A DNA stretch of 44,773 nt from Desulfuromonadales bacterium (lineage in GTDB: Bacteria > Desulfobacterota > Desulfuromonadia > Desulfuromonadales > JAHYIW01): contig JARGFI010000023.1 in the NCBI GenBank assembly GCA_029210745.1, forward strand, positions 1 through 44,773, in the 5' to 3' direction. The notes beneath the pieces were generated by a model. The model made no database searches. It was given only the letters and a program-made list of their open reading frames with translations, and was not told where the DNA came from. The first letter of the stretch is position 1, and each line of letters begins with the position of its first letter. The position numbers and the translations under genes were made by a program. Positions 40,359-41,628 of the stretch are shown piece after piece.

Positions 40359-40427
40359 ATGCCGAAGAATGAATGGTCGATCGAACGGTTCATGCAGCAA
40401 AGCAGTGGTTTCTGCAAAACCCGATAA
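40359..40427 (+). pseudogene. 5' fragment of a gene cut off by a REP array
   Basis: AAGGAG stands 6-8 nt before an ATG that opens MPKNEWSIERFMQQSSGF, after which the sequence becomes the first REP unit (from about 40411) and the frame ends at TAA 40425-40427, giving 22 residues. The ribosome binding site and reasonable N-terminus suggest the beginning of a former gene. I cannot identify it, and I see no continuation after the array. Confidence 0.4.
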
Positions 40428-40806
40428 CGGCAGGGACAGGGCCCCCGCGAGGGGTGCCCCTACGGGATCAAACAACCGCCAGCGGATTGATTTGTAGGGA
40501 TACCCCTTGCGGGTATCCAGGTTCTGGTTCTGGTTTTACCCACCTGCAATCCAGTTTTCTGCAAAACCCGATAACGGCAGGGACAGGGCCCCCGCGAGGG
40601 GTGCCCCTACAGAAACAAACAACCACCGGATTGATTTGTAGGGATACCCCTTGCGGGTATCCAGGTTCTGGTTCTGGTTTTACCCACCTGCAATCCAGTT
40701 TTGTGCAAAACCCGGTAACGGCAGGGACAGGGCACCCGCAAGGGGTGCCCCTACAGGAACAAACAACCACCGGATTGATTTGTAGGGATACCCCTTGCGG
40801 GTATCC
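40411..40806. repeat. Tandem array of three inverted REP pairs (BIME-like)
   Basis: Three consecutive units with a 144-bp period (GTAG heads at 40494, 40638 and 40782). Each unit holds a left-reading REP (ending CTAC at 40463, 40610, 40754) and a right-reading REP with the perfect stem GGATACCC-cttgc-GGGTATCC after GTAG. The spacer includes TTCTGGTTCTGGTTTTACCC. The left-reading copy in unit three has the stem GGGCACCC-gcaag-GGGTGCCC, so substitutions relative to the other orientation are compensated. The first unit has a 3-bp insertion before 40494. Open frames across it (for example 152 codons) are repeats, not genes. Confidence 0.9.
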
Positions 40807-40846
40807 TGCGTCTCTCCGGTGGGAACCGTAGATCAGGCTAAGTGAA

Positions 40847-41464
40847 ATGAACCGATACAATCCCGACATTCACCACCGTCGATCCATTCGGCTGAAAAAT
40901 TTCGATTATTCTCAGAAGGGCGCATATTTCCTGACGTTGTGTACCTTTGACCGTGGTTGTCACTTTGATCGGTTCCCTCAGTTGCGGCACATTGTCGAGA
41001 CTCAATGGTATAGCCTGCCGCAGCGGTTTCCGGGAGTTGTCCTGGATGAATTCGTGATCATGCCCAACCATTTCCACGGGATAATCGTTCTTTGCAGGGA
41101 TACCCCTTGCGGGTATCCTGAATCAGATTCTGGTTCTGTCCACCTGCAATCCGGGTCTCTGCAAAACCCGACACCGGCAGAGACAGTGCACCCGCAAGGG
41201 GGCGGACCAACCGTTGGCGATGTTGTTGGTGCGTTCAAGTCATTGTGTGTCAACGCGTGGCTGAAAGTCATCAGGTCCGAGGGCACCAATGCCACCGGAA
41301 AATTCTGGCAGAACAACTATTACGAGCACGTCATTCGCGATCAAGGGGAAATGGACCGTATCCGTCGATACATTGCCGAGAATCCCCTGCGGTGGGAATT
41401 CGACCGGGAAAATCCGGGGTTCAGCAAGAAACAAGGACAGCAAGACGAGAGATGGATGGTGTAA
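40847..41464 (+). CDS. REP-associated tyrosine transposase (RAYT, Y1/HUH family)
   Basis: A 205-residue single-strand transposase-like protein. The HUH metal motif is His-Phe-His at 75-77 (VIMPNHFHGIIVL), and the catalytic tyrosine is Tyr158 or Tyr159 (GKFWQNNYYEHVIR), followed by RIRRYIAENPLRWEFDRENP, the family's conserved end. These proteins cut GTAG-headed REP hairpins; such hairpins flank this gene on both sides. Residues 83 to about 118 are encoded by a REP pair inserted in frame between the HUH domain and the PTVGDVVGAFKS block. The core motifs are intact, so activity is possible. Confidence 0.9.
   Translation: MNRYNPDIHHRRSIRLKNFDYSQKGAYFLTLCTFDRGCHFDRFPQLRHIVETQWYSLPQRFPGVVLDEFVIMPNHFHGIIVLCRDTPCGYPESDSGSVHLQSGSLQNPTPAETVHPQGGGPTVGDVVGAFKSLCVNAWLKVIRSEGTNATGKFWQNNYYEHVIRDQGEMDRIRRYIAENPLRWEFDRENPGFSKKQGQQDERWMV
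41093..41203. repeat. REP pair inside the transposase coding sequence
   Basis: This stretch repeats the array unit: GGATACCC-cttgc-GGGTATCC at 41098-41118, spacer with CCACCTGCAAT, then GCACCCGCAAGG. The head is GCAG instead of GTAG and the second REP is decayed after 41200. It is read through in frame as CRDTPCGYP and onwards, without a stop. Confidence 0.85.
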
Positions 41465-41476
41465 GGAATCGAATCT

Positions 41477-41552
41477 GTAGGGATACCCCTTGTGGGTATC
41501 CAGGGGTTCGATGTGCGTGATAACGACAAAAGGGCACGAGGGGTGTCCCGAC
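41477..41552. repeat. REP pair downstream of the transposase
   Basis: GTAG at 41477-41480 followed by GGATACCC-cttgt-GGGTATCC to 41501, then a decayed left-reading partner around 41532-41552 (GGGCACGAGGGGTGTCCC). The sequence between them differs from the array spacer. Confidence 0.75.
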
Positions 41553-41628
41553 GGTAAAAAACTACCGTCAGCCCCCCAATAACGGACAAATATCGCATCT
41601 GTCGAAAATAATGGTTTAAACTTGTTTT

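Follow-up and report, generated by a model that had tools for sequence, protein, structure and literature searches.

The gene for a REP-associated HUH tyrosine transposase (RAYT, or TnpA_REP) described here carries, in frame within its own coding sequence, a pair of the REP elements that surround it. The window, by which we mean the whole 44,773-nt stretch of DNA that was analysed, holds the gene at 40847-41464 and the REP pair at 41093-41203. We consider the best explanation to be the recurrent insertion of REPs into a permissive loop of their own transposase, the copy in the window now being a passive relic, and we assign this reading a probability of about 0.75. The case is an ordinary one for its subgroup of transposases, and the insert is probably inert.

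Organization of the RAYT locus

The features of the locus are listed below, with coordinates in the window and strand.

40359-40414 (+), remnant of an O-methyltransferase gene, its first 18 codons; the gene is intact (334 aa) at the same place in the sister species G001
40407-40463 (+), partial upstream array unit, the 3' part of the spacer and an inverted REP with its CTAC foot
40493-40611 (+), array unit 1, a REP-spacer-inverted REP that retains its two feet
40637-40755 (+), array unit 2, of the same REP-spacer-inverted REP structure, also with its two feet, and sharing 97% identity with unit 1
40782-40806 (+), single REP just 5' of the RAYT start
40847-41464 (+), RAYT gene, 205 aa plus stop (from the ORF, NF047646 and Foldseek)
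41093-41203 (+), in-frame REP, spacer and inverted REP, residues 83-119, in the linker that joins the HUH strand to helix alphaC (from identity to array units and disorder in the model)
41094-41118 (+), intragenic REP hairpin, GCAGGGATACCCCTTGCGGGTATCC, with its foot changed from GTAG to GCAG; the orthologs L044 and L114 keep GTAG
41187-41203 (-), intragenic inverted REP, shortened by a 9-nt in-frame deletion that took the CTAC foot kept in L044
41477-41501 (+), single REP just 3' of the RAYT stop
41537-41562 (-), degenerate inverted REP at the 3' junction, the point from which the window is again syntenic with the sister species

On both sides of the locus the DNA is 95-97% identical to that of G001. 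Between the positions matching 40414 and 41537, G001 has the intact 334-aa O-methyltransferase gene (L196 3566-4570) followed by a REP, and the window has 18 codons of that gene (from 40359) followed by the REP array and the RAYT gene. The simplest reading of this alignment is that the RAYT locus came after the split from G001 and replaced most of the O-methyltransferase gene; its right junction coincides with a REP. One frame of the array stays open over 152 codons (40373-40831), and the unit spacings of 147 and 144 nt are multiples of three, which is probably chance; a real 152-aa gene is not supported, the array unit being open on the other strand too.

The transposase and its insert

The protein has its HUH motif, PNHFHG, at residues 73-78, and in an alignment of 24 relatives H75, H77, W154, Q155, Y175 and N179 are invariant. 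The NCBIfam model NF047646 (REP_Tyr_transpos) matches it with E 2.8e-17 and a score of 63 bits, short of the curated cut-off (80 bits), in two stretches that flank the insert; all 24 relatives match the same model at E <= 0.001. A Pfam-A search with the protein gave no match, and RAYTs found in a search of plasmid records were distant ones only. The HUH/Y1 fold is seen in an AlphaFold2 model (mean pLDDT 75), and Foldseek searches with this model returned the IS200/IS605 transposases TnpA of IS608 and ISDra2 together with E. coli TnpA_REP (4ER8), E 1.2e-5. In the model, residues 83-121 are unstructured (pLDDT about 44-55) and lie between strand beta3 (75-82) and helix alphaC (123-145). The earlier note had placed the insert in a variable linker after the HUH domain, and the model puts it there.

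Codons 83-119 correspond to 41093-41203, in agreement with the earlier estimate of about 36 residues encoded from residue 83. The insert is free of stops and preserves the reading frame, so that the ORF at 40847-41464 stays open throughout. When its 111 nt were used as a whole-genome query, the array units were recovered (40493-40601 and 40637-40745) at 83% identity and E 3.6e-27, with further matches to the partial unit (40407-40454) and to single REPs elsewhere in the genome. The pair had been described as nearly identical to the array units. This holds for the REP hairpin, whose first 28 nt agree with the array REP at 27 positions, and overstates the likeness of the whole unit, which is 81-83% identical and includes a spacer of about 70 nt. 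With homology over the length of a unit, a preserved frame and this position, the proposal that the transposase gene took up its own REP in frame, as part of the linker, is borne out.

The array units retain both feet, and the intragenic copy has neither GTAG foot: the first now reads GCAG, and the 3' end is 9 nt shorter, the CTAC foot included, than in the ortholog from genome G049 described below. For E. coli TnpA_REP any alteration of GTAG abolishes binding and cleavage, and the S. maltophilia enzyme continues to bind GCAG but its cleavage is barely detected (PMC8266576). As both feet are lost, the intragenic REP is probably no longer cleavable; should group 4 enzymes act in the same way, it would have ceased to be a substrate.

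The same genome carries two further RAYT genes, on contig C28 (L059 640-1188, minus strand) and contig C118 (L003 1492-1842), the latter truncated past its linker; the linkers of both are REP-like and resemble other REP families (VRAIHELP; GAAPCGRPDLGQPQGVAPT). It also has a compact REP pair, with both GTAG and CTAC feet, in frame in a gene for an MmeI-like DNA methyltransferase (G000:C26:2774-2828, equivalent to L086 1501-1555; context EQHL-VGAPLAGAHGQGGHPQGVPLQ-IAFAI). Tolerance of in-frame REPs is thus not confined to the RAYT gene. The sister species G001 (L091) has the same insertion, apparently at the same site.

Age of the insertion

A genome of the same order but another family, G049, encodes a RAYT ortholog with 93% protein identity that carries the same REP pair (L044), with site and frame unchanged. 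DNA homology with G049 spans 40840-41508 and then ends, except for REPs. This limited extent points to horizontal transfer of the RAYT gene and its 3' REP between families, without the surrounding genes. In G049 five of the six REP hairpins are at the RAYT locus, and a complete REP-spacer-inverted REP is present only inside the RAYT gene. Between the two orthologs dN/dS is 0.023/0.203 (0.12) in the core and 0.067/0.124 (0.54) in the linker; by this measure purifying selection acts on the core and is relaxed in the linker.

The insert might have been a recent copy of the adjoining array. Identity is 97% between the array units, 91% between the orthologous inserts and 81-84% between array and insert; as the insert is closer to its G049 counterpart (91%) than to the array beside it (81%), a recent array copy was rejected. 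The array may have been seeded from the gene, or the gene from the array.

The ortholog L114, whose core is 72% identical, comes from a Desulfuromonadaceae MAG; it holds one perfect REP in exactly this position and frame (GIIVL-CRDTPCGYP-GSSNHLGNIVGSFKS). Judged from these alignments, the insertion is old, a REP having probably occupied the slot before the window gene, the G049 copy and L114 diverged; two separate entries at the same site are less likely. The 27-nt REP is identical at 26 positions between the window gene and L114, and of 392 windows of this length in the core not one attains that level. Within REP1 alone, eight of nine codons are identical, against 63 of 112 in the core (a weak test, about p 0.05). 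The 26/27 identity exceeds the expectation for passive decay, and gene conversion with other REPs or selection on the hairpin could be its cause.

RNA folding of the window insert is modestly better than that of shuffled sequences (z -2.4), with z -4.6 for L044 and -3.0 for the single REP of L114. These scores follow from the palindromes and do not discriminate between gene conversion and hairpin selection. In L114 (4538-4565) the TAG stop codon of the RAYT gene comes from the GTAG foot of a flanking REP.

REP units in the linkers of related RAYTs

Two sets of RAYTs were surveyed, one of 34 genes from the same genus and order and one of 76 from named genomes of many phyla. In the first, the best local alignment of a linker to its own flank had a median rank of 2 among 34, as against 22 and 16.5 for the two halves of the core. 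In the second, 44 of 76 linkers fell in the top 5% for their own flank; the two core halves, which were compared with a random 40% of the other flanks, did so in 9 and 6 cases. The earlier note had held that relatives with the same linker and no REP similarity would mark the match as chance; the survey came out the opposite way, linkers matching the REPs of their own loci.

Feet were counted in 108 RAYTs pooled from both sets, with codon-shuffled linkers as the expectation. GTAGGG occurs in 80 of the 108 linkers, at 86 sites against a mean of 6 and a maximum of 13 after shuffling; its density is 6.3 per kb in linkers and 0.36 per kb in cores. The complementary CCCTAC is found in 78 of 108. By reading phase, 67 GTAGGG sites are read as GTA|GGG and 19 as xGT|AGG, the phase of the window insert, and none falls in the G|TAG phase that would make a stop. 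Of the 71 linkers with both feet, 69 begin the unit with GTAG and close it with CTAC, so that it is a REP dimer whose feet face outward. Neither foot is present in about 15 of the 108 linkers, and some short linkers show no visible REP (L186, L146). Most of the 108 relatives thus have REP-bearing linkers, and the earlier suggestion that such an insert is unusual does not stand; the phenomenon was published for subclass 2.4 (PMC6006769).

The contents of the slot also change. L064 and L057 have cores that are 73% identical and carry different REPs, each of which matches its own flanks (scores of 63 versus 24 and 106 versus 21, respectively). Related cores with different REPs, each matching its own flank, imply repeated turnover of the slot. 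Short tandem peptide repeats, which perhaps arose from REP sequence, have grown in the linkers of L057, L074, L167 and L115 (GAMNQ, LRQPPQRV, RAGLE and PGRPHGA), and the C-terminal tail of the L052 RAYT resembles a REP-coded peptide (ADVGATDVRMVDVGATGVGATGRSPLRKIG). A class-wide rule by which feet are lost to escape self-cleavage was considered and rejected, since most linkers keep their feet; it may apply to the window copy only.

Origin and present state of the insert

The sequence of events that we favour is as follows. The loop between beta3 and alphaC is an exposed, disordered slot that tolerates changes in length, and a cognate REP unit with outward GTAG...CTAC feet would have entered it through the transposase's own activity or through recombination between REPs. 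The insert would have survived because the frame used is stop-free and the loop is clear of the active site. The gene, with the REP already in its slot, would then have moved between families. The window insert has since lost both GTAG feet, one to a point change and one to an in-frame deletion, and what is left is most likely an immobile relic that codes for peptide and is passively carried by a transposase that still works. The sequences establish the homology of the insert, its position and frame, its age relative to the orthologs, the purifying selection on the core, the loss of the feet and the recurrence of cognate REPs across the class. An insertion as such was not observed; that it was the work of the transposase, and that the relic has no function, we infer. 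The 26/27 identity with L114 counts against a purely passive relic.

Homologous recombination or gene conversion between REPs, acting in place of the transposase, could have filled the slot. We place this account on the unlikely side. Linkers and flanks share more REP identity than the age of the insertion would lead one to expect, and there is a REP at the 3' junction with the sister species; however, a loop that is still free of REPs offers no homology for the first one to enter by, and the bias towards outward feet (69/71) fits insertion of a defined REPIN unit.

It is unlikely, in our estimation, that selection or continual refreshing maintains the intragenic REP because it does a job in group 4 RAYT genes, either as a self-carried seed or as a feedback site. 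The presence of feet in about 80 of 108 linkers, their outward arrangement in 69 of 71, the matching of flanks and the 26/27 identity with L114 are compatible with it. If this were true, each group 4 gene would carry its cognate substrate in its coding sequence, the window copy being an exception that has decayed.

The two roles can be weighed separately. As a regulatory element, the REP would be bound by the transposase in its own coding strand or mRNA, or its hairpin would slow translation or attenuate transcription, giving negative feedback. The earlier note had raised such self-targeting and regulation by an mRNA hairpin, for which no positive evidence emerged: direct evidence of feedback was not found, both feet are gone from the window copy, and the slightly better folding of the insert RNA (z only -2.4, beside the ortholog values above) is no independent evidence, given that a REP pair folds by nature. 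The unusual conservation of the hairpin between the window and L114 and the retention of feet in most linkers of the class speak for regulation; the footless linkers (about 15 of 108) and the short L186 and L146 speak against it, and we regard it as distinctly unlikely.

As a portable seed, the REP in the coding sequence would travel with the gene in horizontal transfer and found a new REP family in the new host, which we think quite improbable. It would suit G049, with its full unit only in the gene and most of its hairpins at the locus (5/6), the passage of the gene unit across families without the surrounding genes, and the intact feet of most relatives. Against this, the 3' flanking REPs moved with the gene too, which makes an internal copy unnecessary, and it is the internal copy in the window that is footless while the flanking copies are intact.

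Although the linkers of the class are poorly conserved and proline-rich, chance resemblance, or an ordinary proline/glycine-rich linker, is in effect ruled out by E 3.6e-27 over 109 nt that include the non-palindromic spacer and by the class-wide enrichment of feet far above codon shuffles.

A transposase gene that bears its own substrate illustrates how a repeat can turn protein-coding without killing the gene. The internal REP ties a RAYT to its cognate REP and could help to assign REP families to enzymes, and the intact feet across the class pose a testable question, namely whether the internal REP is tolerated or used.

Relation to known systems

E. coli TnpA_REP and its REPtron (4ER8; subclass 2.2) share the HUH-Y1 fold and the association with REPs. 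They differ in that an in-gene REP is not reported for subclass 2.2 and in their motifs, the HuH motif being DHLH and the Y motif another one.

The Rickettsia palindromic elements (RPEs), as cited in PMC3733652, resemble the present case as palindromic repeats that code for an in-frame peptide insert in protein genes. RPEs, however, are spread over many unrelated genes. We know of no cognate transposase that carries them. GTAG/CGTC REPs within other genes (PMC3733652) are likewise in-frame units in coding genes, often dimers coding for 20-30 aa, whereas here the REP lies in the gene for its own transposase, at a position that is used repeatedly in the family.

The closest likeness is to TnpA_REP subclass 2.4 (RAYT group 4), in which in-frame REP insertions at this position are typical and predominant (Quentin et al. 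2018, PMC6006769). By its HuH and W motifs, length and flanking long GTAG REPs, the window RAYT fits this kind. The REPs of subclass 2.4 lie in frame between the HuH and Y motifs, as at 41093-41203. Its HuH motif NH[IFV]H corresponds to NHFH, with histidines invariant in the 24 relatives; and its WQ upstream of Y to the invariant W154-Q155. In place of its Y motif YIxNNP the window protein has YIAENP, with the catalytic Y175, N179 and P180 present and the first N of the consensus replaced by E. The variable beta3:alphaC insertion has its counterpart in alignment columns of very high variability that separate the HUH strand from the FKS helix, and the long canonical GT[AG]G REPs within 1 kb in those at 40494, 40638, 40782 and 41477, together with inverted REPs. 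The median length is 194 aa, against 205 here. The window insert departs from the published description in being a full REP-spacer-inverted REP pair in which both GTAG feet have decayed. That subclass 2.4 carries internal REPs has been known since 2018; the present analysis adds the age of the insertion, the loss of its feet and the frequency of such inserts across the class.
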